Below, one piece after another: positions 3,262 through 20,346 of a stretch of 20,374 nt of DNA. Under the pieces are notes generated by a model. The model did no database searches, had not been told where the DNA came from, and saw nothing but the letters and a program-made list of their open reading frames with translations. Origin of the DNA: a virus; IMG/VR virus record IMGVR_UViG_3300017783_003376, positions 1 through 20,374 of that record; one strand, given 5' to 3'. Position 1 is the stretch's first letter; every line of letters begins with the position of its first letter. The position numbers and the translations under genes were made by a program.

Positions 3262-4695
3262 TTACAACAACTTGGAAATTTGTGCATATGTCAATGCAAA
3301 GTTTTCGTTGCGTCTACTGTCAATTTTATTCAATTCGGCCTGTAACTCACGTTTTAGTCCTAGATATTTTTTACCAGTAAAAAATCCTGCTAACTTTTGT
3401 ACACGTTGAAACTTGCTTGTTTGCAAATACTTTACAACTTGTTCTTTGTTCTTAATATTAAGCACACTAAAATATTCAGGTCTATCTAAAAATGCAAAAT
3501 CAATATCAATGTTATTTTTGCTTGCATAATCTGCTACATCATCTAAATCTAAAATATTGAAAATACTTACTGTACACACAATATCAAGATCGAAGTTGCA
3601 GGATATGTATTTTTGGATGTTTGTTTCAACAGTATTCCATTTGATTGTACTGTGTCTTTCATAGTTGAATTTTTCTCCGATATTGTCTATGCTAAAAGAT
3701 AAATTTACCTTTTCAAATTTTTTGAGTTCATTAACTAAGTTTTGATCAAATATTGTTGCATTAGTATTATAAGATATATTAACATCTTTTGGTAAAACTT
3801 TTAACAACGAAACGTGCTTTTTGTCTAACATAGGCTCACCGCCTATAAATTTAACAGATTTAAGATGTTGCAAATCTTTTTTGAAGTTATTCCAAAACTC
3901 TTCAGTGGTTGCAAATGTATAATCTATTTCATGTAACTTAGGCAAATTTTCATTAAATTTTTTATCTTCTTTATACCAAGCACTGCTTCTGCCATAGTAA
4001 CATATCCTGCATTTACTATTACAACTAAATCCAAGTTTTATATCTAGTTCTATTGGACTATTTTGCATGTTATAAAAATCTGTAGTAAACGCAATATCTC
4101 TTTTAAGTTCATGCTGTCTTTTACTAGAGATACCAGCAGATTCTGCGCTCCAGCATAGATGACATACAGATGGTTTTTTACCTTGTAAAAAATCTTTGCG
4201 AAAACTATTATAACTTTCACTGTGCCAAGCATCGCTTACACTATGGGTTATAACATTCATTTTTGTATCATTGTCATACAAAAATTGCTTGTCGGCTTGA
4301 CAGCAAGGTCTGTAATTACCATTTGTCATTATTTCTAAATTTGTAAAAGGTGAAGTGCAAATTGTTTCAGGATAATCAAATCTAGTGCTTCCTAAAGTTG
4401 CACGAAGATCTGTTGTGTCTACTGTACAATTCACGTGATCTTTGCAATTGGCATGAATAAAACGTTCTGTGATTCTATTATTTGTAGAGAAGTGTATAAA
4501 AAAAGTTGGTATGTCTAAGTACTCTGCAATACGGAAAAAATGACGCCAAATGCCTTGATCTGTGTTACCATATGCAGTTACAATGATCTGTTCATTTGGT
4601 GCATACTCTGTCTTTTGAATAGATTTCAAATCATAAAACATATCTTCAAAAGGTTGGCTATAATATTCTGTAATCTCTTTTTTAAATATGATCAC
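3262..4695 (-). CDS. Radical SAM protein with N-terminal Cys-rich (twitch/SPASM-like) segment
   Basis: A 477-residue enzyme (from the GTG at 4695) with a radical SAM core signature CNSKCRIC at about residues 225-232 (CxxxCxxC binds the 4Fe-4S cluster that cleaves S-adenosylmethionine) and the GGEP motif at 285-288. Before the core are further cysteines (C113, the CC pair at 131-132, and CHLC at 178-181) in a pattern seen in marine-phage radical SAM proteins, where they probably hold an auxiliary cluster. Residues 1-100 form an extra N-terminal region not present in the shorter relative at 8451-9587. The GTG start has a GGAG site 8 nt upstream and overlaps the upstream gene by 14 nt; a TTG at 4731 is the alternative but lacks such a site. 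The substrate is unknown; the neighbouring glycosyltransferase-like gene suggests a sugar or peptide modified for glycan work. Confidence 0.9.
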   Translation of the reverse strand: MIIFKKEITEYYSQPFEDMFYDLKSIQKTEYAPNEQIIVTAYGNTDQGIWRHFFRIAEYLDIPTFFIHFSTNNRITERFIHANCKDHVNCTVDTTDLRATLGSTRFDYPETICTSPFTNLEIMTNGNYRPCCQADKQFLYDNDTKMNVITHSVSDAWHSESYNSFRKDFLQGKKPSVCHLCWSAESAGISSKRQHELKRDIAFTTDFYNMQNSPIELDIKLGFSCNSKCRICYYGRSSAWYKEDKKFNENLPKLHEIDYTFATTEEFWNNFKKDLQHLKSVKFIGGEPMLDKKHVSLLKVLPKDVNISYNTNATIFDQNLVNELKKFEKVNLSFSIDNIGEKFNYERHSTIKWNTVETNIQKYISCNFDLDIVCTVSIFNILDLDDVADYASKNNIDIDFAFLDRPEYFSVLNIKNKEQVVKYLQTSKFQRVQKLAGFFTGKKYLGLKRELQAELNKIDSRRNENFALTYAQISKLL

Positions 4696-5536
4696 GAATT
4701 CTACTCCATTGTAGATGTATTTCGTCAGCAAACCATTCGGTGTATGTCATACGGTTTAACCAGTTATGTCTATCAGGCTTGCTTAACCATGAGTCTATCT
4801 TACTGCCAACTTCATACGCTAAACTACTTTCACTAACAACAGCAGGCACACCATGTATAATGCTAGTAATGCCAGCGTTGCTGCTATGACTAACAGTAAA
4901 GTGTGTGTGCTTTAGCATATGCTCTAAATCAAAACTGTCATAGGTTTGTTGCACATGCCTGGGTATGTTCCAAGTTACATCTTGTTCTTTGTACCACTGC
5001 ATGTCACATGCCCAGTGTAGCGACTCTCTGTAACGAGGATGGCTGCGAACAACTATGGGCTTGTCTGTTACTCGGCGTATCTCTCTAATAGTATTGCGAT
5101 AGTATGTGTCCATATCAGGCATACTACGCCACTGTTCACTGTGTCCGTGTTGTCCACATATTAGTACATATTCACCTTGTTGCTTCCAAGGCTGTAACAC
5201 AATGCCAAACTTTTGTAGTCTGTCGTTAGGCATGTAAGTATCTACTGCAAAGTCTGCATCTCTGTTGATCCCGTTTATACCCAACTTCCAAGTAGTATTG
5301 CGTATAAGCCCGCCCACTTCTATGACAATGACTGGCTTGTTCTGTGCGCGGTAGTGATCCCATACATGTTTGTTAGCACTCATCTTACCATACCACAACA
5401 CACTCCATATAAGTGCAGCATCAGCATCCATGTCATTTTCAACAAGTGTGTCCGTTTGCTGTATAGCATCCACTAGTTGCGGATAAACTTCACTTGCATT
5501 GTTAGGTAAGTTGTTTGGAAAATGTGATATTTTCAT
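4682..5536 (-). CDS. Putative GT-B (capsule/KpsC-like) glycosyltransferase, paralog A
   Basis: A 284-residue soluble protein that appears to be the first of three related proteins in the window (others at 11102-11914 and 11907-12839). A GG-x-IRNTTW segment (about 75-84) opens the N-terminal domain. The C-terminal domain has a VLICGQ strand (124-129), the basic motif VVRSHPR (162-168) and HFTVSHSSNAGITSIIHGVPAVV (212-234), resembling the nucleotide-sugar half of KpsC/capsule-type GT-B transferases (R-x-HP, then NSxxxxEALxxGxPVV). It ends with a WLNRMTYTEWFADEI segment shared in form with both paralogs. No membrane segment is seen. It starts 28 bp from the divergent gene at 5565 and is the first gene of a two-gene minus-strand unit. 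Donor and acceptor are unknown. Confidence 0.7.
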   Translation of the reverse strand: MKISHFPNNLPNNASEVYPQLVDAIQQTDTLVENDMDADAALIWSVLWYGKMSANKHVWDHYRAQNKPVIVIEVGGLIRNTTWKLGINGINRDADFAVDTYMPNDRLQKFGIVLQPWKQQGEYVLICGQHGHSEQWRSMPDMDTYYRNTIREIRRVTDKPIVVRSHPRYRESLHWACDMQWYKEQDVTWNIPRHVQQTYDSFDLEHMLKHTHFTVSHSSNAGITSIIHGVPAVVSESSLAYEVGSKIDSWLSKPDRHNWLNRMTYTEWFADEIHLQWSRIRDHI

Positions 5537-5551
5537 AAGGGATTAAAAACC

Positions 5552-5560
5552 AATAAATAG
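5552..5560 (+). promoter_or_regulatory. AATAAATAG box in divergent gap, possible T4-like late promoter
   Basis: The 28-bp gap (5537-5564) between the divergent genes is the only place from which both can be transcribed. It contains AATAAATAG, close to the T4 late-promoter -10 consensus TATAAATA, and the same 9-mer occurs in the other divergent gap at 16256-16264. With T4 geometry the transcript of the + gene would begin at or next to its ATG (5565), so it would be almost leaderless; there is indeed no Shine-Dalgarno sequence right before this ATG. In an AT-rich genome a match of this size can arise by chance. Confidence 0.4.
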
Positions 5561-5564
5561 TTAT

Positions 5565-6449
5565 ATGCGTACATTATCAGTATTTACCTCCTGGCACCCT
5601 ACGGGATACAAAAAATATGGCAAACAATTTATTGAGGGTTACAACAATTGTTGGCCCGCAGAAGTTCCTCTTACGATTTATGCAGAGGATCACAGACCAG
5701 AAATAAATAATCCGAATATAACAGTTTTGGATCAAGCAAGTACTTTGCCTGATCTGAAAAGTTGGCAACACCGTCACAAAGATAATCCACATGCACACGG
5801 GCACAACAAAGATAAAACTAAGAAAAGTTTTCTCTGGGACGCAAGCCGTTTTGCAAACAAAACTTTTGCACTTTGGCATTTTGCAGAACACTGTGATACA
5901 GACATTTTTATATGGTGTGATGGAGATGTAAGAACACATACACCAATGACCCTAGAGTTTTTGCAAAGTATTGCTCCCGGTGAAAATCAACTTGCTACAT
6001 ACCTAGGACGGAAAACTTGGCCCGAGTGTGGCTGGATGATGTTTAATCGTAATCATCCAAAGTTTGCTGAATTTATGGAGCAATGGCGTTGGATATACGA
6101 AAGTGATGACATCTTTAAACATGATGAATATCACGATAGTTTTATCTTTGGTGAACTAGTTGAAGACTTTAAAGCAGTTGGTGTAGAGTTTAATGATCTA
6201 GGCGGACCAGACAAAGGCGGTCATATCTTTATCAATAGTGTATTAGGTGCATACATGGATCATCTTAAAGGCTTTAGAAAAGAAGTAGGCAAAAGTCTTA
6301 AAGGTGATATTGTTGGCGGTTTTAAACATAATGCTGAATGGTGGAACGATTTGAGACAAGTAACTAAAGAACAAATCCGCCAAGAGAAATTAAAAAACCC
6401 ACATGAATATGATGCCACACAACAAGTTAAAAGTAAGGGAATAAAATGA
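5565..6449 (+). CDS. GT-A fold glycosyltransferase-like protein
   Basis: A 294-residue protein. It opens with a beta-strand (LSVFTSWHPTGY) and has a hydrophobic strand ending in a DxD-type motif, DIFIWCDGDV (113-122, DGD at 119-121), which in GT-A enzymes binds the metal and nucleotide sugar. CGWMMFNRNHP follows at about 155-165, resembling the acceptor-side strand (NxG/MxFN) of such proteins. A His/Lys-rich loop (about 69-87) precedes the core, and the C-terminus is lysine-rich and probably disordered. No signal peptide or membrane anchor is visible, so it is cytoplasmic. It leads a ten-gene run of mostly overlapping genes on the + strand and overlaps the next gene by ATGA. The donor sugar cannot be read from sequence. 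Confidence 0.8.
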   Translation: MRTLSVFTSWHPTGYKKYGKQFIEGYNNCWPAEVPLTIYAEDHRPEINNPNITVLDQASTLPDLKSWQHRHKDNPHAHGHNKDKTKKSFLWDASRFANKTFALWHFAEHCDTDIFIWCDGDVRTHTPMTLEFLQSIAPGENQLATYLGRKTWPECGWMMFNRNHPKFAEFMEQWRWIYESDDIFKHDEYHDSFIFGELVEDFKAVGVEFNDLGGPDKGGHIFINSVLGAYMDHLKGFRKEVGKSLKGDIVGGFKHNAEWWNDLRQVTKEQIRQEKLKNPHEYDATQQVKSKGIK

Positions 6450-7219
6450 GCGAACTAAGTGTAATACAAAATGTAACCAAAGTAGAAACAGATCCATATC
6501 CTTATGTTTGTGTAGAAGGAGCATTGCCAGATCGCTTTTACAAAGAGCTGCAGGATACATTTCCTGAACAACTAATAACAAACACAAGTCCACATGACGG
6601 AGGCATTTGCTATCGTTACAAGATGAAAGAGTGTGCAGAAATAGAACAACCGCCTGCAATATGGCAAGACTTTTTTGCATATCATACAAGTCCTGAATAC
6701 TTCCGTGCTTGCGCAGAACTATTTGCTACAAGTATTGTAGATCATTACAGTGAAGAGTTTTATGAAAGTTTAAAGACACAGAGTGTAACACCACGTGATG
6801 TTGATAATACTGGACATTATGTAGCAGATTGCCAGTTTGTTGTACATGAACCAGTAGATCAAACAGGCACAAGTCGTACACCACATGTGGATAACCCAGT
6901 TGAAATATACGCTGGACTGCTATACATGAGACAGGAAGGCGATACTGCACAGGGCGGCAACTTTACAGTGCATCGTGTACATGGTGAGATTACTGAGGTA
7001 AACAAAAGTTTAGGCAGACAAGTAGACAACAGTTTACATGTGCCACACTTTGAAGTGCCTTACATGGCAAATAACTTCTGCATGTTTTTGAATGTTAAGG
7101 ACAGTGTACATGGTGTTACACCGCGTATTGAACCTACAATGCGGCGCCGTAGCATTAATATTATTGGCGAGTTTAATGGCACTGGTAAGATGTGGAAAGT
7201 TAAAGAAATCAAATCATGA
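6446..7219 (+). CDS. 2-oxoglutarate/Fe(II)-dependent oxygenase
   Basis: A 257-residue enzyme with the double-stranded beta-helix signature of 2OG-Fe(II) oxygenases: HVD at 147-149 (H147 and D149), the distal iron ligand H222 in DSVHGVTPR, and a downstream arginine (R227, or those at 233-235 in MRRRSINII) able to hold 2-oxoglutarate. The GLLYM and GGNFTVHRV strands between the iron ligands fit the prolyl-4-hydroxylase/PhyH-like arrangement. Such enzymes hydroxylate an unactivated C-H in a protein side chain, sugar, lipid or small molecule; the target here is unknown. It overlaps both neighbours by ATGA (6446 and 7216), so translation is likely coupled to a glycosyltransferase upstream and a kinase-methyltransferase downstream, suggesting tailoring of the same product. 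Confidence 0.88.
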   Translation: MSELSVIQNVTKVETDPYPYVCVEGALPDRFYKELQDTFPEQLITNTSPHDGGICYRYKMKECAEIEQPPAIWQDFFAYHTSPEYFRACAELFATSIVDHYSEEFYESLKTQSVTPRDVDNTGHYVADCQFVVHEPVDQTGTSRTPHVDNPVEIYAGLLYMRQEGDTAQGGNFTVHRVHGEITEVNKSLGRQVDNSLHVPHFEVPYMANNFCMFLNVKDSVHGVTPRIEPTMRRRSINIIGEFNGTGKMWKVKEIKS

Positions 7220-8451
7220 AATACGCCATGGGCAAAGCCAGTTGGTGTTTTATGACTGACGAGCATGTTGTAAAAAGTTACAGTGTAAGAAACAAAAAAA
7301 GTGTTAAACCTGCTCGCGGAAGTATATATGATTGTTGGTTACGAGAAACAACATGTTTGCAACGACTAAAAGGTAAACTACATTTTCCTCAAATTATAGG
7401 AGCAGATGAAAATGATTACAGTTTAGCAATGACAAGTGTAGGAGATAGTTTATTCCATACCTGGCACGAACATAATTTAACACTGTATCACGATCAAGTG
7501 AACAGAATAGCAGACGAACTAGAACAAGCAGGTATACAATATTTTTATCCGGGCATGGATCCAAATACCAAAAGCAAGGACTTTACAAAATTTCCACTAA
7601 GTAACTTTTGCATTGAAGATGGTATAATCAGTCTAATAGACTTTGAAATGGCAACAGCAGTTAACAGTCTAGCAGAACAAAGACTAAGCGATAGGTTATC
7701 ATACCTATACAGTTTTTTTAAAAAGGAAGAGTTTAGACAAGCACTACATAATTGTTTGGATGATCCTAGACAAAGTTGGGAAAGTGAATTAAATGCAAAA
7801 CTTCCAGACAAGTCTAAATTTGAAGAGTTACGCAAAGGTAACCCTAGGGAAATATGGAATAATATGACAATGTTTACACAACCACCAGAAAAAGTAATTA
7901 AAGAATGGAACAAGTATCAAAAACGCTATGGTATAGATGATGCACAAGATCGTGTTGAACGTATGAAACTTGTTGAACTAGCACAACAATATGACGGCAA
8001 AGCACAGTTAATTGATATTGGATGCAATGATGGATTTATTACAAAACTAATGGCACCTCATGTAGCAAAAGCAACAGGTGTGGAGCCTTTTGTAAAACTC
8101 AGTGATGATAAAAAACCAGAAAATGTAAAATGGTATAGAGGCACATTTGGTGATTACCTTAAGTTTAAACAACTTGAATCTTGTGACATAGTTCTAAGTC
8201 TAGCAGTAAGTATTCAGTTGCGTGACTTTGGTGGATTTACAGAGCAAGAAATTGTAAACGGTTTTCACAGTTTACTTGCACCTGGTGGCATTGTTGTTCA
8301 CGAAACACAGAAACTTGAAAATCGTCCAAACAATCAGGAACACACTGATGCAATGCTTGCTGCTTTTAAAACTAAGTTTGTGCAAATAGATCACGGAAAA
8401 GCAAGACCTAGCGGTAAACGTGAATACTATCATTTTCAAAAGGTAGACTAA
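7216..8451 (+). CDS. Kinase-like domain fused to class I SAM methyltransferase
   Basis: A 411-residue two-domain protein. Residues 1-165 look like a degenerate aminoglycoside/choline-kinase-like fold: VVKSY (K20, ATP lysine position), RET (E44), then GMDPN (D115), LSNFCI (N130) and SLIDFEMA (D142, metal-binding Asp position). Residues 250-411 are a class I methyltransferase: motif I LIDIGCNDGF (265-274), acidic strand end ATGVEP (286-291), CDIVLSLAVSIQL (323-335) and LLAPGGIVVHET (353-364). A linker with NPREIWNNMTMF lies between. The same kinase-like plus methyltransferase combination recurs as two separate genes at 12829-13869 and 13856-14527. Possible substrates are a sugar, an amino alcohol or a glycan end. 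The kinase assignment is less certain than the methyltransferase. Confidence 0.8.
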   Translation: MKYAMGKASWCFMTDEHVVKSYSVRNKKSVKPARGSIYDCWLRETTCLQRLKGKLHFPQIIGADENDYSLAMTSVGDSLFHTWHEHNLTLYHDQVNRIADELEQAGIQYFYPGMDPNTKSKDFTKFPLSNFCIEDGIISLIDFEMATAVNSLAEQRLSDRLSYLYSFFKKEEFRQALHNCLDDPRQSWESELNAKLPDKSKFEELRKGNPREIWNNMTMFTQPPEKVIKEWNKYQKRYGIDDAQDRVERMKLVELAQQYDGKAQLIDIGCNDGFITKLMAPHVAKATGVEPFVKLSDDKKPENVKWYRGTFGDYLKFKQLESCDIVLSLAVSIQLRDFGGFTEQEIVNGFHSLLAPGGIVVHETQKLENRPNNQEHTDAMLAAFKTKFVQIDHGKARPSGKREYYHFQKVD

Positions 8452-9587
8452 TGAATACCCCAATTTGTAGTATGCCATGGCATGCTTTCTATCTTAAAGC
8501 CGCAGGAGAAATACATCCTTGTTGCCATATCAAAGAACCAGAAGGTACCAAGTATACAATACAAAAGGATGGACTTGAAGCCTATGAAAAAAGCAATTTT
8601 ATAACTGATCTTAAAGAAAGTTTACTCGCCGGCAACATGCATCCCAGCATGTGTAGAGTTTGTATAGATCAAGAACGTAGTAGTATTAAAAGCATGCGTG
8701 AGTTGGAAATGGAGCAACTCGAACAGTGTTATCCAGAATGGACTATAAATGATGGATATGTAAAAGCACAATTTATATTTGACAACAGTTGTAATCTTAA
8801 GTGTATAATGTGCGATAGTCTATATAGTAGTAAATGGAGACAAGAGTACAAAGATGTATACGGCATTGATAACAAGCCAAGTAAAGTAGACAATAGTATT
8901 ATCAAAGACTTTTTTGATAAACACTACAAAAGTCTAAGACATATACAGATAAGTGGCGGCGAAACTTTTATGGGTCCACTGGGAAGAGACAGTGCTTTTT
9001 TAGATAGTATAATCAAAACAGGTGCGCAAACTAAAATAGATTTGTTTATAGAAACAAACGGAACATTATATCCAGATCAAGAAATTATCAATAAGTTACT
9101 AGAGTTTCGCAGTGTTAAGTTTAATCTTAGTATAGATGCTACTGGTGCACGTGGAGAATATATTAGGTTTCCCAGTGTGTGGGATGAACACAAGCAAATT
9201 ATACATCAAATAAAAAAATTGGCTGATAGCCATTACAGTTTTAGTTTAGGAATAATGCATACATTGAATATATTCAATATATTATATTTGCCAGACTTTA
9301 TAAAATACGCACGAACATTAGACAAAAATCCACATATACATATTGTACATGGCCCAAAACATTTTAGTCCACATGCACTTACAGATGCACTAAGAGAAAA
9401 AATAGGCAAAATACTACTCAAGGGCAAAGATTTAGAATGTTTACGCTGGGGAAAATATCTCTTAGAAAGCAAATACAATGGTGCATGGAAAGATTTTTTA
9501 CTATACAGGGACAAGCATGATTTGTACAGAGGCACAAACTTTACAAAAACATTTCCAGAATTAGAGGAACTTATCAATGGCGTTTAA
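8451..9587 (+). CDS. Radical SAM protein with N-terminal twitch-like Cys cluster
   Basis: A 378-residue protein. Core signature CNLKCIMC at 114-121 (C114, C118, C121), SGGET at 168-172 for SAM binding, and NLSIDATG (225-232) on a core strand. The N-terminal part has C6 in the start strand ICSMPW, CC at 24-25 and CRVC at 68-71, matching the auxiliary-cluster pattern of the minus-strand radical SAM gene at 3262-4695 but without its extra 100-residue N-terminus, so the two are paralogs. Start ATG at 8451 shares its A with the preceding TAA (TAATG). The last codons (GGC GTT TAA) overlap the start of the next gene by 11 nt. The reaction is unknown; the auxiliary cluster is typical of enzymes acting on peptides or sugars. 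Confidence 0.92.
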   Translation: MNTPICSMPWHAFYLKAAGEIHPCCHIKEPEGTKYTIQKDGLEAYEKSNFITDLKESLLAGNMHPSMCRVCIDQERSSIKSMRELEMEQLEQCYPEWTINDGYVKAQFIFDNSCNLKCIMCDSLYSSKWRQEYKDVYGIDNKPSKVDNSIIKDFFDKHYKSLRHIQISGGETFMGPLGRDSAFLDSIIKTGAQTKIDLFIETNGTLYPDQEIINKLLEFRSVKFNLSIDATGARGEYIRFPSVWDEHKQIIHQIKKLADSHYSFSLGIMHTLNIFNILYLPDFIKYARTLDKNPHIHIVHGPKHFSPHALTDALREKIGKILLKGKDLECLRWGKYLLESKYNGAWKDFLLYRDKHDLYRGTNFTKTFPELEELINGV

Positions 9588-10392
9588 TAATATTATGCAG
9601 TTAGCAACTGCACAACTAACAAAACAAGGTGCATTTCCTTCTGGAGCAACAGTAGTCGAATGGGGTAATCAGCGTTTTAGATACAGTGAGGATTGGTTAA
9701 ATGAATGTGAAAAAACAAGCGGGCGAATACTCAGAAAACCTACACAGTTCGTATGGGAGTACTTTGAGGATTTGGGGTTTAGTGATTACCTTGCTATTGA
9801 TATTAACACTGAACTTAGGTCTATCGCTATGGATCTCAATTTCATCTTAAAAGACAAGTACAACTACACGCAACAGTTTGATTATGTGACAAACAACGGC
9901 ACAGGTGAACACATTTTTGATCAGCGCACAGTATTTGAAAACATGCACAATCTATGTAAAGTAGGAGGCACAATGATTAATGTGCTACCATTTGCACCTT
10001 GGTTTAATCATTGTTTTTACAGTTTTCATCCACAGTTGTTCCGCGATATTGCGGCCGCAAATGGATATACCTGGCAGTTTATGTGGTTAGCACAAAACAC
10101 AGGCAAATATGTAGACTGCCCTACAGACTTTGATAGTTGGAGTTACTATGAACAAAAGAAACCTCGCAATCCTATTAGTGATTTGGAAAAGCATTTTGAT
10201 GCCCTTCATAATCGCGAAGGCAAAACTCATAATGTTAGTATTGTTAGTGCGTATACTAAAACAGAAGATAAGCCGTTTCAAATCCCGTTCCAAGGACGAT
10301 ATGTAAATGATATTGTTGATAACCTTAAGGGCGAATACAGTAATGCAAATGTAGACACTAGACAGCAGGATCACAAAAGTGCGGCTTATTAA
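9577..10392 (+). CDS. Class I methyltransferase-like protein with atypical SAM motif
   Basis: A 271-residue protein with a methyltransferase-like order of strands: VVEWGNQRF (26-34) where motif I should be, YLAIDIN (71-77) with the acidic residue of motif II, FDYVTNNGTGEHIF (101-114) as motif IV, CKVGGTMINVLPF (127-139) as the post-motif strand. The glycine-rich GxGxG loop is replaced by EWGNQ, so SAM binding may be altered or lost. A segment with HPQLFRDIAAANGY follows, as in family members that include a C-terminal substrate lid. It starts at an ATG overlapping the radical SAM stop (ATGGCGTTTAA) and ends overlapping the next gene by 14 nt. Partnership with the upstream radical SAM enzyme is plausible but inferred. 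Confidence 0.7.
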   Translation: MAFNNIMQLATAQLTKQGAFPSGATVVEWGNQRFRYSEDWLNECEKTSGRILRKPTQFVWEYFEDLGFSDYLAIDINTELRSIAMDLNFILKDKYNYTQQFDYVTNNGTGEHIFDQRTVFENMHNLCKVGGTMINVLPFAPWFNHCFYSFHPQLFRDIAAANGYTWQFMWLAQNTGKYVDCPTDFDSWSYYEQKKPRNPISDLEKHFDALHNREGKTHNVSIVSAYTKTEDKPFQIPFQGRYVNDIVDNLKGEYSNANVDTRQQDHKSAAY

Positions 10393-11092: not shown

Positions 11093-11101
11093 CAGATTAC
11101 T

Positions 11102-13869: not shown

Positions 13870-14527
13870 ACGAGCAGACATAGAAAGCATAACTTTTGGT
13901 GGGCACGACAGTGGTGTAACACAGGTGCGAGGTTATCAAAACTATGATATTAGTGATGAACAAGTTTTGGCTATCAATAATCCTGGCCCTAAACGTCCTT
14001 GGGTAGATACACGGGTAAAGTTTGAAGACTTTAATCGTGTGTTTAATACTATAAGTCCTCGTAGTTATGCAGACTTTGGCAGTAACCTAGGATTTTATGT
14101 ATTCATGTGTGCGCAGGAATATGACGTACCTGCAACAGGTGTTGACTATAACATGGAATACATAGCAGTGTGTGAGAGTATAAAAGCAAGACACAGTGCA
14201 AGTCTAGCAACATTCAAACACACAAACTTGGAACTGTGGCAGGACGGTGTGTATGAGTTCATGACTGTGTTCAATGTAATACATCATCTATACAATCGCA
14301 CAGAAAAATACATGGATATGTATAGACTACTAAAAGATTTTGCAGACAAAGCAGATACAATATTATTTGAAGTTCCTACAGAGCAGGATAAAAAGGGACA
14401 CAAGTGGACAATGGATACTGGGTACAGTGAAGCATTGTTCTACGAACAAGCACTAAAACTATTCACACAAGTAGAACGCATGTCTGGACAAACAGAACAT
14501 CGTCCTTATTACTTGTGTGTCAAATAG
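13856..14527 (+). CDS. Class I SAM-dependent methyltransferase
   Basis: A 223-residue protein with clear class I methyltransferase motifs: YADFGSNLGFY (71-81, motif I loop), ATGVDYNMEYI (93-103, acidic D97 for the SAM ribose), FMTVFNVIHHLYN (135-147, motif IV with the VxHHL found in sugar/lipid-type methyltransferases) and TILFEVP (168-174). An extra 65-residue N-terminal segment (GYQNYD, then NNPGPKRPWVDTRVKFEDF) precedes the fold. The start ATG has AAGGA upstream (AAGGAAATTTATAAATG) and lies 14 nt inside the kinase-like gene, so the two are translationally linked. Its stop overlaps the stop of the convergent gene on the other strand by 8 nt. The substrate is unknown. Confidence 0.85.
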   Translation: MQTLERADIESITFGGHDSGVTQVRGYQNYDISDEQVLAINNPGPKRPWVDTRVKFEDFNRVFNTISPRSYADFGSNLGFYVFMCAQEYDVPATGVDYNMEYIAVCESIKARHSASLATFKHTNLELWQDGVYEFMTVFNVIHHLYNRTEKYMDMYRLLKDFADKADTILFEVPTEQDKKGHKWTMDTGYSEALFYEQALKLFTQVERMSGQTEHRPYYLCVK

Positions 14528-15551
14528 TCTCTGCCCACTTCCTAAATGCATCTAAGTTAGTTATACGCCATGGATGATTATATCCTTTTGTGGGTTGTGG
14601 GTCTTCAAATACAACTTTCCCTTTGTATAAATCAATAGATGTTTTGTTCATATATGGACTCTGTGCTACAATGTGCCTATTTTGATTTCCACTAGGAAAC
14701 GGAAATCCTGGAGTGTGTATCCCTCCTACACTTAAATCTCGATTAATACGCCATAGTATATTAGTAACACCTGCACCTGCTGTGCTTATATATTTTGTCA
14801 TGTTACTAAACATACTTATTTTTTCACCTAAATTATAGTTTTCACCAAATACTTCTGTATATCCCAATGCCTTAAGAATGTCTACTATGCTATCTTCGTT
14901 TACAAGACCACGCTTAACAGTGTTATCCTCACCTATAACATCTTTGCGATTACGCAATGGATTTGCATGAGCTCTTCGACTTAGATAGACTTTGTCATGT
15001 GCAGGAACATCTGGATATCTCTGTCTACTAACAGTAACTAATTTTTGTATTAAACTGTATATTCTACTGTCGGGAGGACAACGCTTTCCTGTTACAGGGT
15101 CGTTGCACAGTGTATCGCTAAAAAATACATGTGAATATTGTGTATTTTCATCGCTATATCTATAGTCAATATCTAGCAGTTCTAATAATTCAGTTACAAA
15201 GGGAGGATGTTTATCCAATTTTCTAGCAAGTGGATTCAACATTAATTTAATATTTGGATATTGTGCTCTTAATTTTAGATAATTGTATAGTGGGCCCAGT
15301 CCATCATTGATGCAATGATAGTAGTTCATTAAAGGAAATGTATACCAATAGAAGTATATTCCATCCGCATATTGTTTAACCTTAGGTTGTTCAGGAGTAG
15401 GCTTACCTGCCAAAAAACTTTGATTCTTTCCCAAATGATATGGAATTGCCTGATCCATATGAATAAACCATTCAACTTTACTAGTAAAGTTTAGAACTTG
15501 TAGGTTGTGAAGTTCACCAATACCTTCACTGTTAAAGTGGTTGCGTATCAT
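14520..15551 (-). CDS. GT61-type glycosyltransferase (DUF563-like)
   Basis: A 343-residue protein. Landmarks of the GT61 (DUF563) family are present in order: NYYHCINDGLGPLYNYL (76-92, the YHxxxDxL-type entry), KVYLSRR (187-193), RGLVNEDSIVDILKALGYTEV (214-234) and YISTAGAGVTNILW (254-267), which corresponds to the family's GAGLxNxxF donor-site motif. Members transfer xylose, GlcNAc or other sugars in eukaryotes and are also found in bacterial polysaccharide loci. It starts with an ATGA overlap to the upstream GT-A gene, so the two form a minus-strand pair. No signal peptide or membrane segment is visible, so it would work in the cytoplasm. The C-terminus overlaps the end of the convergent methyltransferase gene. 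Confidence 0.85.
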   Translation of the reverse strand: MIRNHFNSEGIGELHNLQVLNFTSKVEWFIHMDQAIPYHLGKNQSFLAGKPTPEQPKVKQYADGIYFYWYTFPLMNYYHCINDGLGPLYNYLKLRAQYPNIKLMLNPLARKLDKHPPFVTELLELLDIDYRYSDENTQYSHVFFSDTLCNDPVTGKRCPPDSRIYSLIQKLVTVSRQRYPDVPAHDKVYLSRRAHANPLRNRKDVIGEDNTVKRGLVNEDSIVDILKALGYTEVFGENYNLGEKISMFSNMTKYISTAGAGVTNILWRINRDLSVGGIHTPGFPFPSGNQNRHIVAQSPYMNKTSIDLYKGKVVFEDPQPTKGYNHPWRITNLDAFRKWAETI

Positions 15552-16237
15552 GAACTATACAAGTTGATTACTTCTTTTTTCCATATATGATCATATTCAC
15601 AATCACGCATGTTTTCAAACCAAGGACCACCTTCTGTGTAGTGTAACACTTTGGGTGTGCCATCTACGCCTTCTTTGTAATGCCCTACTAACCAGTTCCA
15701 TTCAGGTCCTAGTTCACCGATCTCACTGTCATCACACCACTCAAATCTATGCAAGTATGCGCCTGTTTGAGTGTTGACAGTCTCCAAATCCAAGTTCTTA
15801 CAACTAGGATGTTCACAGTTAAACACCATAAAACTAGACCAGTTCTTACGAGGATACTGCAATTGCATTTGTCCATCCATTTTTAATCCCTCTGGAGGAT
15901 TGTAGTCATGTTTTACTACCCAAACTGCTTTGCTCTCATCTCTAAATCCATTATTAAACAAATGATGTGCATCTGTTAAAAATACCATATCGCTATCGCA
16001 AAACACTGCTAGTCCTTTATAGTTGTTTAGATGTGGAATAAGAAAGCGTGTAAAAGTAAATTCAGTACTAGCAAGTTTGTCAACTTCACGCCAGTAAAGT
16101 TTTTGCTCTCTTAGTTCATTTTGCTTTAATGGAATAACATTTACAAACTCTTTGTATGTGCGTCTTAGTATTGAATGTTCGCATACTTGATATGCAATAT
16201 CTTCACGGCTATCCCAGCCAACATATATATTGTTCAT
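15548..16237 (-). CDS. GT-A glycosyltransferase
   Basis: A 229-residue protein beginning NIYVGWDSREDIAYQVCEHSI, a strand-loop-helix that in small GT-A proteins starts the nucleotide-binding fold. AVFCDSDMVFL (77-87, DSD at 81-83) is the metal/UDP-sugar-binding DxD motif; WSSFMVFNC (133-141) and VLHYTEGGPWF (197-207) match the later strands lining the active site. A KLASTEFTFTRFLIPHL segment (54-70) precedes the DxD, as in GT8-like enzymes where the F-x-RF helix positions the donor. An AGGAA ribosome-binding site lies about 8 nt upstream of the ATG. It is the first gene of a two-gene minus-strand unit and overlaps the GT61 gene by ATGA. Confidence 0.88.
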   Translation of the reverse strand: MNNIYVGWDSREDIAYQVCEHSILRRTYKEFVNVIPLKQNELREQKLYWREVDKLASTEFTFTRFLIPHLNNYKGLAVFCDSDMVFLTDAHHLFNNGFRDESKAVWVVKHDYNPPEGLKMDGQMQLQYPRKNWSSFMVFNCEHPSCKNLDLETVNTQTGAYLHRFEWCDDSEIGELGPEWNWLVGHYKEGVDGTPKVLHYTEGGPWFENMRDCEYDHIWKKEVINLYSS

Positions 16238-16255
16238 AGTTCGATTTTCCTGTAT

Positions 16256-16264
16256 AATAAATAG
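16256..16264 (+). promoter_or_regulatory. AATAAATAG box, possible late promoter for the rightward unit
   Basis: In the 64-bp divergent gap 16238-16301 the sequence AATAAATAG (preceded by TAT) is the same 9-mer found in the divergent gap at 5552-5560. With T4 late-promoter geometry (TATAAATA at -13 to -6), transcription would start near 16269-16270, giving a leader of about 30 nt before the ATG at 16302 with its AGGTGA ribosome-binding site at 16292-16297. Confidence 0.45.
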
Positions 16265-16283
16265 AATAATAAAGTGCGTATAT

Positions 16284-16291
16284 TATTTATC
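16284..16291 (-). promoter_or_regulatory. GATAAATA box, possible late promoter for the leftward unit
   Basis: On the minus strand the bases 16291 down to 16284 read GATAAATA, one or two changes from the T4 late-promoter box TATAAATA. It lies about 47 nt ahead of the minus-strand ATG at 16237. The boxes for the two directions are crossed, each lying nearer the opposite gene, so the two transcripts would overlap within the gap. The match is short and the region AT-rich, so this is tentative. Confidence 0.4.
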
Positions 16292-16301
16292 AGGTGATTC
16301 A

Positions 16302-17084
16302 ATGACAACAGTAGTTTTAGTAACAGGCGGCTTTGATCCGCTACACAGTGGACATATTGCCTACTTTGAATCAGCCAAACAACTAGGCGATGAACTATGG
16401 GTTGGTCTAAACAGTGACGCCTGGCTTGCTAATAAAAAAGGACGTAGTTTTATGCCTATACAAGAACGTGCAAGCATTGTTAAAAATTTACGCATGGTAG
16501 ATCGTGTGATTGTAAACTTTGATGATAGTGATGGCAGTGCTAGTGGTGCAATACACAAAGCATATACGCTAGGTGCAGAACACATTGTATTTGCTAACGG
16601 CGGTGACAGAGGTACAGAGAATACACCTGAACAACACGACTTTAGATACACGCCTAATATAGAATTTGTGTTTGGTGTAGGCGGGGAAGATAAAAAGAAT
16701 AGTAGCAGTTGGATTCTCAAAGAATGGCAAGCACCTAAAGTAGAACGCGAGTGGGGTCACTATAGAGAACTATACAGCGGAGATGGATTTAGTGTTAAGG
16801 AACTGGTTATTGCTCCGCACAGTAAACTTAGCATGCAGAAACATAAACATCGCAGTGAAACTTGGAATCTTGTAAGTGGTAGTGCATATGTACTAACGAG
16901 TACTGGTTCAGATCCATTTGACGGCGCAAGACGACAAACGCTAACTCCGCCCAATCCTGTGGACATTCCACGTGGCGTATGGCATCAAGGCGTAAATGAC
17001 AGTGACAAGCCAGCACACATTGTTGAAGTGTGGAAAGGCCCTAGCGAGCAGTTAACTGAAGAAGATATAGAACGCTGGAATTAA
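16302..17084 (+). CDS. HxGH nucleotidyltransferase fused to a ManC-type cupin
   Basis: A 260-residue two-domain protein. Residues 1-135 are an RfaE-C-terminal/TagD-like nucleotidyltransferase: VLVTGGFDPLHSGHI (5-19, HSGH at 15-18 for nucleotide binding), LGDELWVGLNSD (28-39), FMPIQERASIV (50-60), VFANGGDR (96-103) and the KNSSSWIL loop (132-139) where the family has the ISST/RTSGI signature. Such enzymes join CTP or ATP to glycerol-3-phosphate, phosphocholine or heptose-1-phosphate. Residues 145-260 resemble the cupin of type II mannose-6-phosphate isomerase/GMP: REWGHYRELYSGDGFSVKEL (149-168), LSMQKHKHRSETW (176-188; metal ligands H181, H183) and IPRGVWHQ (222-229; H228). Start 16302 is preferred over 16230 because AGGTGA precedes it and the fold begins there. 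It probably makes an activated phospho-sugar for the surrounding transferases. Confidence 0.88.
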   Translation: MTTVVLVTGGFDPLHSGHIAYFESAKQLGDELWVGLNSDAWLANKKGRSFMPIQERASIVKNLRMVDRVIVNFDDSDGSASGAIHKAYTLGAEHIVFANGGDRGTENTPEQHDFRYTPNIEFVFGVGGEDKKNSSSWILKEWQAPKVEREWGHYRELYSGDGFSVKELVIAPHSKLSMQKHKHRSETWNLVSGSAYVLTSTGSDPFDGARRQTLTPPNPVDIPRGVWHQGVNDSDKPAHIVEVWKGPSEQLTEEDIERWN

Positions 17085-17085
17085 T

Positions 17086-17799
17086 ATGCAAGAAATAGCA
17101 GTTGTGCTTGCGGGTGACAAGTTCGATCCCAATGTACATGTAAAACAAATATATAAAAGATTACACAGATATTGTACAGATTTTAGATTAACAGTATTCA
17201 CCGATCAGCAAATTAATATTGATGAAGTAAGAACTATACCGTTGCCTCAATGGGATTTAAATCCCCGGGGACTGTGGTGGTATAAAATTTACATGTTTGG
17301 CCCACACAGTTGGACAGGGCCTGTGCTTTACATGGATTTAGATACTATACTAATAGGTAACATAGACAAGTTTTGGGACTACGAACCTAATAAATTTTGT
17401 ATATGTCAAGATTTTAATAGACAGTTTATAGACACTTATCCTGTAAGCAATAGCAGTGTAATTAGATTTGACCCTGCTAAATACACTGACATATACAATA
17501 CTTTTGTAGAAAATCCACAAAAAATTATTAGGCAATATCGTGGAGATCAAGACTACATAACAGCCTATTTCAAAGAACGTAACGATAAACAGTGGTGGCC
17601 AAAAGAATGGGCTATGAGTTACAAATGGGAAATCAAACATGGCGGAACTAGAGTAGGCGGATTGGATATAAAATATCCAGATGACTATATACAGCCTGAT
17701 TTGCCAGAAGTTATTCCTGAACCCTGTAGCATTGTAGTATTTCATGGTAAGCCAGATCCTTACGAAACAGAATTTGGAAAAAGATATTTAAATGATTGA
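17086..17799 (+). CDS. GT8-like GT-A glycosyltransferase
   Basis: A 237-residue protein with an IAVVLAGDKFDP start (4-15), RGLWWYKIYMF (61-71, the helix that in these proteins leads to the donor site), VLYMDLDTILIG (80-91, DLD at 84-86 for metal binding), a SNSSVIRF strand (121-128), YRGDQDYIT (151-159, GDQD loop) and a C-terminal IVVFHGKPDPYE (216-227), whose His after a hydrophobic strand matches the HxxGxxKPW end motif of GT8. It begins 1 nt after the nucleotidyltransferase-cupin stop (TAATATG), so the two are co-transcribed, and overlaps the next gene by 8 nt. It is cytoplasmic and has no membrane segment. The sugar donor is unknown; the adjacent nucleotidyltransferase might supply it. 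Confidence 0.88.
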   Translation: MQEIAVVLAGDKFDPNVHVKQIYKRLHRYCTDFRLTVFTDQQINIDEVRTIPLPQWDLNPRGLWWYKIYMFGPHSWTGPVLYMDLDTILIGNIDKFWDYEPNKFCICQDFNRQFIDTYPVSNSSVIRFDPAKYTDIYNTFVENPQKIIRQYRGDQDYITAYFKERNDKQWWPKEWAMSYKWEIKHGGTRVGGLDIKYPDDYIQPDLPEVIPEPCSIVVFHGKPDPYETEFGKRYLND

Positions 17800-19330
17800 A
17801 CAACGCGATTTAGTGCTTGTTACTGTACCTTTTACAGATACACCTATTCCCCTTTATGCTATTGCGCAACTTAAAAGTGTTGCTCTCGAAGCCGGTTGGA
17901 GTTGCGCCACTATTGATTTTAACAATGATTTTTTAACAAAGATCGTTAATCATCGCCATGGGACTGCTCTGACAGATTGGTTTTATCATGAGAAATATCA
18001 TCCAGGAATTGAAAAATTTGTAATGGATATGATACATATTATGTCTGATAGGATAATAGCAAATAAGCCTAAAGTAGTTGGCATTAGTTTGTTTACCTAT
18101 GCATGTCAAATAGCAACAAAGTATTTGTGTTTAGCAATAAGACGTAAAGATCCAACAATTAAAATTGTAATTGGCGGTAGCGGATGTTTTGATAATGTTC
18201 TAGGTGAAAGTGTATATGTTGATGCTATGCATCAAATGAACTTAATCGACCATCACTTTACCGGTGACGCTGAACTTGCTTTTTATGATTATTTAAAAGG
18301 CAAGCACGATATAATTGGAATGGACGAAAGTAAGTGGAAAGAACTAAGCAACAAAGATATTGCAGAAATACCTTTCGCTAACTTCGATGATTATAACTGG
18401 GATCTTTATAAAAATCCTGTGATACCAATGACTGCAAGCAGAGGGTGCGTGAGACGATGTAAATTTTGCAGTGATATTGCACACTGGAAGATGTTTAGTT
18501 TTAGAACTGGTCAACATATATTTGACGAAATGTTACATCAAAAAGAAAAATATAATATAAGTCATTTTAGTTTTACTGACGCTCTTATTAATGGCAACGT
18601 AAAAGAATTTAGAAGTTTATGTGGCTTGCTCAGTGAATACAATCACACAAATAAAGATGACAAAATTAGTTGGGAAAGCCAATTTATTTTTAGACCACAA
18701 AACCAGTTTAAAGAAAATGAATGGGAGTTACTAGCAGGTAGTAATCCCACAGAATTGTATACAGGAATTGAAAGTTTAGATCCAGACGTAAGACATGATA
18801 TGGGTAAAAAGTTTAATCAAGATGATTTAAACTTTAATTTAGAAATGAGTCTCAGGCACAACATTCATATATACGGTATGATGATTGTAGGATATCCCAC
18901 TGAGGACGAACACAGTATACAAGTTGCTAAAGACTGGCTTAGCGATCATACACACTTTCAACCAATATTAGAATTTAGTTTTGGTGGCACAATGGCTATA
19001 CTACCTGGAACGTATCTGGATAATAACAGAGAAGAGTATGGGCTAGAAGTATACGGACCACCATGGCAAATGTGGAGTAGCACCAAGAGTGGTAGCACAC
19101 CAGAAAAGCGTCTTAAATGGTGGCAGGATCTCAGTAATCACGCTAAAGAACTGGGCTATGAAATTGGTAGTGCGCATGAAAATGAAAGTGTTATTCATAT
19201 CCTAAGCAGTATGGATCACACACAAGACACCAAAGCGTACAGAAACGACAGAGCATTAGATGTGCAGAACTACAAAGACTTTCACGATCAATTAAAAAGG
19301 TTAAAGGATGAACCAATTCAACTCCAGTAG
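17792..19330 (+). CDS. Radical SAM enzyme with B12-binding-like N-terminal domain
   Basis: A 512-residue protein. Residues 1-165 have the Rossmann-like layout of B12-binding domains: VLVTVPFTDTPIPLYAIAQL (8-27), VVGISLFTY (95-103), IKIVIGGSG (123-131) and HHFTGDAELAF (154-164). The cobalamin His motif (DxHxxG) is not seen where expected; the corresponding stretch is IDFNND (41-46). The radical SAM core follows: TASRGCVRRCKFCSD (214-228; C219, C223, C226), SFTDALINGN (260-269) and GIESLDPDVRHDMGK (325-339), a typical ELP3-like core region, then IYGMMIVGYPTED (360-372). The C-terminal 120 residues (WWQDLSNHAKELGYEIG) carry no recognised motif. Members act in methylation or rearrangement of sugars, lipids and peptides. 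The ATG at 17792 overlaps the previous gene by 8 nt. Confidence 0.92.
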   Translation: MIEQRDLVLVTVPFTDTPIPLYAIAQLKSVALEAGWSCATIDFNNDFLTKIVNHRHGTALTDWFYHEKYHPGIEKFVMDMIHIMSDRIIANKPKVVGISLFTYACQIATKYLCLAIRRKDPTIKIVIGGSGCFDNVLGESVYVDAMHQMNLIDHHFTGDAELAFYDYLKGKHDIIGMDESKWKELSNKDIAEIPFANFDDYNWDLYKNPVIPMTASRGCVRRCKFCSDIAHWKMFSFRTGQHIFDEMLHQKEKYNISHFSFTDALINGNVKEFRSLCGLLSEYNHTNKDDKISWESQFIFRPQNQFKENEWELLAGSNPTELYTGIESLDPDVRHDMGKKFNQDDLNFNLEMSLRHNIHIYGMMIVGYPTEDEHSIQVAKDWLSDHTHFQPILEFSFGGTMAILPGTYLDNNREEYGLEVYGPPWQMWSSTKSGSTPEKRLKWWQDLSNHAKELGYEIGSAHENESVIHILSSMDHTQDTKAYRNDRALDVQNYKDFHDQLKRLKDEPIQLQ

Positions 19331-19790
19331 TGTTGAAATTACATTTACATTTGTTAATCCTATTGAAACAATAAAACTGTTTCACAATGACGAACAATGT
19401 ATGCCCGACAGTAACAATCAATATATCTATCGAGCTCAGCACATTTTTCCGGTGCGTTTGCAGTTTGAAATGAATGGTAAATGTCCGCGAGGTAGTGATT
19501 GTAGAGTTGATGCAAATGGCGAAGTAATATGGGATAGGTATATTATTGTCAGTGGAGTAAAAGTTGACGGTGTAGTTCCTAATCTTAACCACTTAAAACG
19601 CTGGGGAAGGATACATCCAAACACAACATTAAAAGACTTTAGACCCGCAAACCAAATTGTGTTTAGTAACTACATGGGATTTAATGGTGTTATTGAACTA
19701 GAATTTGATGGCAGTGATGTTTTAGAATGGCTTATGAGAACACATCAATACAAAGAAGATGATTGGCAAAAAAACTATGACTATGACTAA
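19308..19790 (+). CDS. Hypothetical beta-rich protein
   Basis: A 160-residue protein I do not recognise. The start ATG lies 23 nt inside the radical SAM gene, with AAAAAGG 7 nt upstream. The sequence alternates short strands (SVEITFTFVNPIETIKLF, then IIVSGVKVDGV, then GVIELEFDGSDVLEWLM), suggesting an all-beta, carbohydrate-binding-like or jelly-roll domain; two cysteines sit close together in GKCPRGSDC (57-65). A tightly charged C-terminus (YKEDDWQKNYDYD) ends the protein. No signal peptide is visible. It lies between a radical SAM enzyme and a methyltransferase-like gene with overlaps on both sides, so it is probably a non-enzymatic partner or substrate of them; that is inference. Confidence 0.75.
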   Translation: MNQFNSSSVEITFTFVNPIETIKLFHNDEQCMPDSNNQYIYRAQHIFPVRLQFEMNGKCPRGSDCRVDANGEVIWDRYIIVSGVKVDGVVPNLNHLKRWGRIHPNTTLKDFRPANQIVFSNYMGFNGVIELEFDGSDVLEWLMRTHQYKEDDWQKNYDYD

Positions 19791-20322
19791 GACTTATTGG
19801 ATAGAACGTAATAAAACTATCAATGTAGACTGGAGTGCAAAAACAGTGGTATATTGTAGAAATATTTTTAAGCACATTAATATACCCAAAGGAAATGTAG
19901 TAATGCTAGGAGCGGCATACAGTCTTGCACTTGAAGTATTAGTTGGACAGTTTGGCAAACGTGCAATGGGTGTTGATAAATGGAACTTTGGTAATCATCC
20001 ACAGTGTATCACTGAAGATATATTTGACTTAGATGACTTTGACTGCGCATTTGTATACTGCGATGTAGCAAGTTTCAGCCATATTGCACAGCAAAATCCT
20101 TGTCCTAGATTGACGGCCTTTGAGTGGAGTTTGCGAAATCTAGTGCCTGGTGGATATTGTTTAACAAGAATGTACGGATATTCAGATCAGGACATGAAAA
20201 GCACCCAGCATTTAATGCGTATTGTTGATAAACACAATGTAACTATTTTGCCAATACCCGGTAACTTCCGGGGATCGGATTGGGATAGTAAAGATGATGT
20301 TTTATTGCGAAAAAAAGGTTGA
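19783..20322 (+). CDS. Methyltransferase-like protein with degenerate SAM loop
   Basis: Read from the ATG at 19783, 179 residues. Other in-frame ATGs at 19759 and 19777 cannot be excluded; 19783 gives the 8-nt overlap with the preceding stop that is common in this cluster. VVMLGAAYSLALEVL (39-53) replaces the glycine-rich motif I, RAMGVDKWNFG (60-70) places the acidic D65, FDCAFVYCDVASF (86-98) serves as motif IV and LVPGGYCLTRMYGY (120-133) as the post-motif loop. The methyltransferase fold is plausible, but with LGAAYS in place of GxGxG, SAM binding is uncertain. The TGA stop overlaps the -35 element of the promoter at 20319. Confidence 0.7.
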   Translation: MTKTYWIERNKTINVDWSAKTVVYCRNIFKHINIPKGNVVMLGAAYSLALEVLVGQFGKRAMGVDKWNFGNHPQCITEDIFDLDDFDCAFVYCDVASFSHIAQQNPCPRLTAFEWSLRNLVPGGYCLTRMYGYSDQDMKSTQHLMRIVDKHNVTILPIPGNFRGSDWDSKDDVLLRKKG

Positions 20323-20346
20323 CAGTTGTTTAAACTGTGCTATATT
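20319..20346 (+). promoter_or_regulatory. Strong sigma70-type promoter with extended -10
   Basis: TTGACA (20319-20324) is a perfect -35 element; after 16 bp comes TATATT (20341-20346), a near-consensus -10, preceded by TGC (20338-20340), an extended -10. This is the best host-type promoter in the window, and the sequence from 20347 on is a short leader ending in GAGGAGAGA. It would drive a gene starting just beyond base 20374, probably as an early promoter for host RNA polymerase. Confidence 0.8.

Follow-up and report, generated by a model that had tools for sequence, protein, structure and literature searches.

A glycosyltransferase-rich island between uvsY and uvsW of marine jumbo phages: a candidate late module for Kdo-type surface glycans

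Why should a giant marine phage keep a long, unbroken row of glycan genes beside its recombination genes? The question is raised by a viral contig of 20,374 bp (IMG/VR record IMGVR_UViG_3300017783_003376), the whole of which we analyzed and call the window, and whose open reading frames (ORFs) are numbered g1 to g24. It begins inside a gp32-type single-stranded-DNA-binding protein gene (ssb) and, the window being the entire contig, its right end is truncated. The order ssb, g2, uvsX, g4, uvsY is followed by an island of 19 consecutive ORFs (3262 to 20322, g6 to g24) that is 99.8% coding. The tight packing described in the original prediction was found throughout, with 15 of the 18 junctions overlapping and the remaining gaps measuring 1, 9 and 28 bp. 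No near match to the window was found among 50,697 phage records. The ratio of nonsynonymous to synonymous changes (dN/dS) was 0.03–0.16 for most island genes having a close relative (0.24–0.35 for the poorly matched g11), low values indicating that these genes are kept for function by purifying selection. Our leading, still tentative, explanation is that the island is a late-expressed module for surface glycans of the Kdo (3-deoxy-D-manno-oct-2-ulosonic acid) type, with the host envelope as its most probable target. Late start signals together with a main enzyme family resembling Kdo transferases suggest that a custom glycan is probably placed either on the surface of the infected cell, which is thereby remodelled, or on the phage particles themselves.

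This main family consists, in the window, of three glycosyltransferases (GTs) of the GT-B type:
4682 to 5536, minus strand: g7, GT-B enzyme with a KpsC/WbbB-like predicted fold (AlphaFold2 model, confidence score pLDDT 90; Foldseek match to KpsC, E = 5.6e-8)
11102 to 11914, plus strand: g14, GT-B paralogue of g7 by alignment, R-x-K-P replacing R-x-H-P
11907 to 12839, plus strand: g15, GT-B paralogue of g7 by alignment, also with R-x-K-P

They had been listed as three separate enzymes among seven glycosyltransferases. Seven GT-like proteins are indeed present (g7, g8, g14, g15, g18, g19 and g21), but the three GT-Bs are not unrelated: judged by their alignment they are paralogues in one expanded family, with many more members in related phages. 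The 27 best PDB matches of the g7 model were all retaining Kdo transferases (KpsC, WbbB or KrkA), with E values down to 5.6e-8, a probability of 1.00 and TM-scores of 0.40–0.57, so that g7 is predicted to have the modified GT-B fold of the KpsC/WbbB type. Two motifs mark enzymes of this kind, QXXXD, whose Asp is the nucleophile, and (K/R)XHP, which binds cytidine monophosphate (CMP) (PMC9587256, PMC12887879), and the general-base Glu at the acceptor site differs in location between their families (PMC12887879). In g7 the corresponding residues are Q129, Ser133 at the position of the Asp, and R164-S-H166-P167. The distance of 37 residues from the Gln to the His (129/166) is that of WbbB (228/265 in the numbering of PMC9587256). 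Across the 31 aligned family members (g7 and 30 relatives) the RXHP motif and Gln129 were invariant, and the nucleophile position held Ser in 25, Asp in four and Gly in two. Compared with KpsC (GT107), WbbB (GT99) and KrkA (GT140), g7 thus shares the predicted fold, the Gln and the RXHP, but it is shorter and has Ser for the catalytic Asp, whereas g14 and g15 have RXKP where (K/R)XHP is expected. As the nucleophile is missing, the members in the window were not classed in GT99, GT107 or GT140, and the Ser of g7 and the missing histidine of g14 and g15 imply that these enzymes may use a different sugar and a different mechanism. Members with Ser could have arisen from a retaining ancestor and become inverting CMP-ulosonate transferases, or evolution could have run the other way.

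The complete QXXXD...RXHP signature was found in 20 ORFs of the phage loci retrieved. Most of these are clearly island genes, although in such a pattern count a few chance matches are possible. One of these ORFs gave a weak Capsule_synth match (E 0.018) together with a match to a surface-carbohydrate model; a Pfam scan of 31 g7 relatives gave no match. Some relatives carry g19, the GT8-like enzyme, in fusion with a GT-B domain of KpsC/WbbB-like type (for example L090:10774-12456, 560 aa, and L089:8921-10612). On the evidence of sequence and predicted fold, the family encoded in the island is Kdo-transferase-like and has diversified.

Genes for the synthesis of the corresponding donor were found in several relatives of the window:
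L246:11799-12524; L294:4781-5467; L365:10215-11637; L366:12078-13539: viral kdsB and kdsA-kdsB genes

In L246 the CMP-Kdo synthetase gene (kdsB) has g12 on one side and, on the other, a g14-type gene that it overlaps by 11 bp; the kdsB product scores 156.2 bits against TIGR00466, where the equivalogue cut-off is 155.2. The kdsB of L294 overlaps a g15-type gene. An overlapping kdsA-kdsB pair is located 2–5 kb beyond uvsW in G007 and in a 335-kb contig; there kdsA scores above its cut-off, and kdsB is below cut-off with KdsB as best match. Cyanophage S-SCSM2R also has a g19 relative near kdsB and kdsA. The ORF adjoining kdsB in L246 (10816-11802) contains a GSSPS...LGMDCDY pattern that recalls the Maf/DUF115 flagellin glycosylation factors, with no NCBIfam match.

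The second line of evidence concerns the timing of expression. NATAAATA is the published late promoter of cyanomyoviruses, with TATAAATA/NATAAATA as consensus (PMC2984593). In three long relatives its density was 1.217/kb in the 95 bp around gene starts (coding strand) and 0.019/kb inside genes, a 64-fold enrichment upstream of genes. A homologue of a structural protein of phage CBB had it upstream in 10 of 11 loci. No replication gene tested did, and the 367 regions upstream of ssb, uvsX and uvsY contained no occurrence. In the 31 kb of CBB itself that were examined, it was found at four annotated structural genes and two hypothetical ones, and not at the recombination genes. The window holds four occurrences, against about 9.6 expected by chance, and three of them stand at operon heads:
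5552 to 5559, plus strand: late-type promoter AATAAATA, 13 bp upstream of the g8 start
16240 to 16300, both strands: divergent late promoter between g19 and g20, with AATAAATA at 16256 (plus) and GATAAATA at 16291 (minus)

The first is conserved before g8 in 31 of 40 close relatives, at identical spacing in 25. Across ten loci the divergent one has hardly changed, in contrast to its variable flanks, and in 40 of 68 distant relatives, where g20 is often the first island gene, NATAAATA precedes g20. The start of g20 is most likely the conserved ATG at 16302 and not the listed 16230, the promoter filling the space before it. Exact TATAAATA had no hits in the window, the NATAAATA form having been derived from the long relatives. 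The arrangement is that of T4-superfamily late control, with TATAAATA/NATAAATA upstream of late genes, and the island would accordingly be expected to be expressed late. A sigma-70 consensus scan of the window performed no better than shuffles. Right after the island, TTGACA-16 bp-TATATT at 20319-20346 resembles an early-type promoter for the next gene beyond the window.

The genes to the left of the island place its phage:
1 to 621, plus strand: g1, partial gp32-type single-stranded-DNA-binding protein (PHROG 1192, 4e-36), left flank
661 to 1488, plus strand: g2, no assigned function, between ssb and uvsX, present in few relatives
1491 to 2582, plus strand: g3, UvsX recombinase (PHROG 97, 1e-71), left flank
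2566 to 2802, plus strand: g4, conserved 78-aa protein between uvsX and uvsY
2799 to 3260, plus strand: g5, UvsY recombination mediator (PHROG 231, 5e-13), left border of the island

UvsX is 64–67% identical to those of Sinorhizobium phage Phosso, Agrobacterium phage Atu_ph07, Vibrio phage 2.275.O and the CBB/GAP32 group, which are all T4-superfamily jumbo myoviruses. By this protein the phage belongs to a T4-superfamily jumbo lineage, and the name T4-like given to it before applies only in the broad sense. The ssb-uvsX-uvsY-uvsW core and a size above 200 kb, which characterize such phages, were found in relatives of 203, 316 and 335 kb, the window covering only 20 kb. The 335-kb contig is filed under a Candidatus Neomarinimicrobiota metagenome-assembled genome (L150/L151; PBPT01000082.1, PBPT01000016.1), where it is probably a binning contaminant. 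In four long relatives (60, 117, 203 and 316 kb) about 16–23 kb with glycan genes lie between uvsY and uvsW, and the island stops before uvsW. The 335-kb contig has the island in this slot as well. Island phages share the order terL, ssb, uvsX, uvsY, uvsW and the UvsX similarity with CBB and Vibrio phage 2.275.O, in which a structural or unknown gene follows terL and the uvsY-uvsW gap holds a single exonuclease-like or unknown gene and no glycan genes. No glycan genes are annotated in that region of Atu_ph07 and Phosso either.

Linkage was searched from island genes (g12 and g19), not from uvsX. Among the IMG/VR loci anchored on g12, 46 of 47 had uvsX/uvsY inside the fetched flank and the remaining one was cut at g7; among those anchored on close g19 relatives, 75 of 79 had uvsX/uvsY or uvsW. 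Three of the four exceptions were short contigs and one, L339, was a real exception. All 47 g12-anchored loci contained g7, g8 and g9, and 30–32 contained g14/g15, some of the loss being due to truncation; g6, g13, g16–g18 and g21–g24 were patchy. The layout is uvsY-g7<-g8-g9-g10-g12-g14-g15-...-g19<-g20-g21 in close relatives and uvsY-g20-g19-(GT-B)n-g8-g7 in distant ones, the g18–g21 block is inverted in G003, and a sulfotransferase gene, seen in L105, comes and goes among loci. The position of the slot is fixed, its core is conserved and its cargo is mosaic. Scattering and independent exchange of the genes in related phages had been named as what would speak against a common pathway; since the position is fixed and yet the radical SAM (S-adenosylmethionine) genes, g13, g16, g18, g22–g24 and the sulfotransferase come and go, independent exchange is half true.

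Another companion of the slot is an outer-membrane protein. A Gram-negative porin (PF13609, about 1e-21) lies between uvsY and g7/g8 in 17 of 46 loci of the close group, and G002 has one porin, located elsewhere:
L105:3775-4611, minus strand; G004:C1:28007-28768; G001:C1:188394-189254; G002:C1:262510-263286: phage-encoded outer-membrane porins

The porin had no match in annotated phage records. SAR11, SAR86 and other marine bacteria have orthologues of g20 (about 45–50%), and these, being spread over several groups, are not diagnostic of the host. The full-length ones (nucleotidyltransferase plus cupin; L152-L229) are solitary genes, and 39 such loci, mostly of SAR11, show a conserved neighbourhood with an adjoining transporter of the major facilitator type.

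For the rest of the island the assignments were graded as hidden Markov model (HMM) matches above curated cut-offs, matches below cut-off, predicted fold, homology or motif only:
3262 to 4731, minus strand: g6, twitch/SPASM radical SAM enzyme (CxxxCxxC at 237; Pfam 6e-11; NF033640 5e-80)
5565 to 6449, plus strand: g8, GT-A glycosyltransferase (DGD at 119-121; AlphaFold2 pLDDT 92; Foldseek)
6446 to 7219, plus strand: g9, 2-oxoglutarate (2OG)-Fe(II) oxygenase-like (HVD at 147; weak Pfam match, 0.003, below cut-off)
7216 to 8451, plus strand: g10, kinase-like N-domain (LIDFE, motif only) and SAM methyltransferase domain (PF13489 1e-6, alignment)
8451 to 9587, plus strand: g11, twitch/SPASM radical SAM enzyme (Pfam 7e-9; NF033640 2e-78)
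9577 to 10392, plus strand: g12, divergent class-I methyltransferase-like (weak Pfam, alignment), very conserved, 65–97%
10379 to 11092, plus strand: g13, SGNH/GDSL-like hydrolase (motif only, GCS...DDTH)
12829 to 13869, plus strand: g16, kinase-like (GxGxDG, WVDYG; motif and alignment only)
13856 to 14527, plus strand: g17, SAM methyltransferase (DFGSNLG; PF08241 8e-5, above cut-off)
14520 to 15551, minus strand: g18, GT61 glycosyltransferase (Pfam 2.5e-8)
15548 to 16237, minus strand: g19, GT8/GT24-like glycosyltransferase (DSD at 81; Pfam 2e-4, below cut-off; PHROG 28018 7e-52; alignment)
16302 to 17084, plus strand: g20, HxGH cytidylyl/adenylyltransferase fused to a ManC-type cupin (Pfam 1.5e-12 and 2e-16)
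17086 to 17799, plus strand: g21, GT-A-like glycosyltransferase (DLD at 84; PHROG 1962 1.5e-25)
17792 to 19330, plus strand: g22, B12-binding radical SAM enzyme, methylase-like (CVRRCKFC at 219; Pfam 2e-8)
19308 to 19790, plus strand: g23, no Pfam or PHROG match
19759 to 20322, plus strand: g24, possible methyltransferase (FtsJ-like 0.007, below cut-off)

Most of the enzyme calls made from the letters alone hold in these domain searches. The three radical SAM enzymes (g6, g11 and g22), the GT61 enzyme g18 and the nucleotidyltransferase-cupin g20 score above curated cut-offs. Two of the four methyltransferase domains do so as well (the C-domain of g10, and g17), with weak matches for g12 and g24, and the oxygenase call on g9 has its HVD motif and the below-cut-off match behind it. 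The two kinase-like domains (g16 and the N-domain of g10) and the hydrolase g13 are motif calls, g16 having no HMM and no PDB sequence match. Against NF033640, 'twitch domain-containing radical SAM', g6 and g11 reach 269 and 264 bits (cut-off 170); the best NCBIfam matches of g22 are radical SAM C-/P-methyltransferases, below cut-off. The g8 model matches the GT-A enzymes alpha-1,3-galactosyltransferase, LARGE1 and BoGT6a (Foldseek probability 1.00), and g20 matches CTP:glycerol-phosphate and ethanolamine-phosphate cytidylyltransferases in PDB profile searches, in which g7, g8, g16 and g19 gave nothing significant. Further twitch radical SAM genes occur between ssb, uvsX and uvsY (L006:6847, L010:6733, L045:2292) and, in tandem, at other sites of these jumbo genomes (G002:91017-97074, G004:23614-25773).

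A glycan pathway is supported, the genes staying together in relatives. It had been thought that the pathway might be complete, and here the window falls short: no nucleotide-sugar epimerase/dehydratase, initiating transferase, flippase, polymerase or other membrane protein was detected, and none of the 19 island proteins has a clear membrane helix, so that all the enzymes appear soluble. As no sugar synthesis beyond g20 is encoded, the precursors have to be supplied by the host, or through phage kdsA/kdsB in some relatives.

Gene content, the slot, the g7 and g8 folds, motif status, the kdsB/GT overlap, late-type promoters, porin neighbours and purifying selection are all computed results; the donor sugar, acceptor, export route and benefit we infer as follows. 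The island would be transcribed late from its NATAAATA promoters as g8–g17, g19–g18 and g20–g24, and its soluble glycosyltransferases would assemble a short glycan. The GT-Bs g7, g14 and g15 would probably take CMP-Kdo or a similar CMP-ulosonate, the GT-As g8, g19 and g21 and the GT61 g18 would add to the glycan, and g20 may convert a second phosphorylated precursor into its activated CDP or ADP form. Products of the kinase, methyltransferase, 2OG and radical SAM genes, and of the sulfotransferase in relatives, would modify it. The likeliest acceptor would be host lipopolysaccharide (LPS) or a capsule glycolipid at the inner side of the membrane, from where the export machinery of the host would bring the altered glycan to the cell surface late in infection, blocking superinfection and the loss of progeny through re-adsorption. 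The host envelope is favoured because of the Kdo-type glycosyltransferases, kdsAB, the sulfotransferase of L105 and the porin.

Several observations weigh against this explanation. The TM-scores of g7 to KpsC and WbbB are modest (0.4–0.57), profile searches with it found no significant match among PDB sequences, it has Ser where retaining Kdo transferases have the Asp of QXXXD, and g14 and g15 are also without the HP histidine. The window contains no lipid-linked initiating enzyme, flippase or polymerase. Neither kdsA nor kdsB is present in the window or was detected in most long relatives, which implies dependence on host CMP-Kdo. The porin has no late motif and is absent from the window, where g6 fills that gap, and it indicated no host, with no or weak matches in the sampled Alphaproteobacteria and SAR11 order. 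Finally, late promoters and exclusively soluble enzymes also agree with the decoration of virions, being neutral between the two targets or in favour of virions. A wider version, in which a phage-specific family with the KpsC/WbbB fold builds a custom late Kdo glycan from a fixed locus and, together with the porin, rebuilds the host outer membrane, we regard as somewhat unlikely.

The main rival is that the same pathway glycosylates virion proteins (capsid, tail or fibres), altering adsorption or shielding the particle. Late promoters are common to the island and to virion structural genes, the diverse glycosyltransferases appear soluble and come without export genes, and glycans on capsids and tail tubes are known in Mycobacterium phages (cited by PMC12619734). 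Yet the Kdo genes and the KpsC/WbbB-like fold indicate envelope glycans, the same gap of relatives holds an outer-membrane porin, and no structural gene lies within the island, so that we consider virion decoration possible but the less probable of the two. That the slot is merely a recombination hot-spot gathering unrelated accessory genes, with no single pathway, would agree with the strong differences in identity between adjacent genes, the many genes that come and go, the inversion in G003 and the solitary g20 orthologues of SAR11 and SAR86. It is nevertheless improbable in view of g7, g8 and g9 recurring in every g12-anchored locus, GT8/GT-B fusions such as that of L090, the common late-promoter scheme and the added genes, of which almost all the assignable ones are related to glycans or the envelope.

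A secreted secondary metabolite or modified peptide in place of a surface glycan is suggested by the three radical SAM enzymes, one of them B12 methylase-like, and something similar has been put forward for a second cyanophage cluster (PMC7824862). We judge it very improbable: no precursor peptide, nonribosomal peptide or polyketide synthase or carrier protein was found, the seven GT-like proteins dominate, and the radical SAM genes are the least conserved. Hypermodification of phage DNA in the T4 fashion, which the location among recombination genes and the ability of 2OG and GT combinations to modify DNA in some phages might suggest, is hardly credible and was rejected, because the promoters are late and not early, the enzymes are linked to Kdo, and the absence of DNA-modification enzymes already reported for the window extends to the records of relatives, with no thymidylate synthase/dCMP hydroxymethylase homologue in 18 (positive control detected, although records may be incomplete), no C5-cytosine methylase in nine and no Tet_JBP match in nine (a search without positive control).

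LPS-type clusters in marine T4-superfamily phages are already known (P-SSM2; PMC7824862; PMC7029224). P-SSM2 has 24 LPS genes in two clusters, and LPS/capsule clusters of cyanomyoviruses and jumbo cyanophages (PMC2984593, PMC7824862) have been proposed as a means of changing the host surface so that superinfection is prevented. They share with the island large sets of several glycosyltransferases, HIGH-family nucleotidyltransferases and cupins; like the P-SSM2 type, the window has seven glycosyltransferases and a HIGH-family nucleotidyltransferase with a cupin (g20), but no Pfam match to an NAD-dependent epimerase/dehydratase or a PfkB kinase among its 24 ORFs. The GT families differ, g7, g8 and g12 having no cyanophage match and g19 having one, and the island is set apart by the uvsY-uvsW slot, the late-type promoters, the porin and kdsAB companions and a UvsX outside the cyanophage lineage. 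Closer is the pelagimyophage Mosig EXVC030M (PMC7029224), which has a row of genes homologous to g8, g19 and, twice, the g14 type, together with methyltransferases and a putative sulfotransferase; these homologues are about 28–47% identical and form a smaller set beside ribonucleotide-reductase and ruvC genes, not uvsY. In the open-access literature we found no description of the uvsY-uvsW slot, of a nucleophile-variant KpsC/WbbB-like family, of the late-promoter architecture or of a phage porin.

Phage LPS and capsule clusters have so far been known as scattered or hypervariable cargo. The island is a positional locus, present in dozens to hundreds of marine contigs, with g7-g8-g9 as core and late-type promoters, in a lineage of widespread, uncultured giant marine phages. 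Its GT-B family is a natural source of sequences in which the nucleophile of an unusual, double-displacement type of glycosyltransferase varies. With virion and envelope as the two candidate targets, the question of why jumbo phages carry sugar genes becomes testable, and the porin and kdsAB genes suggest that envelope remodelling by a lytic phage may go beyond single adjustments of the O-antigen.

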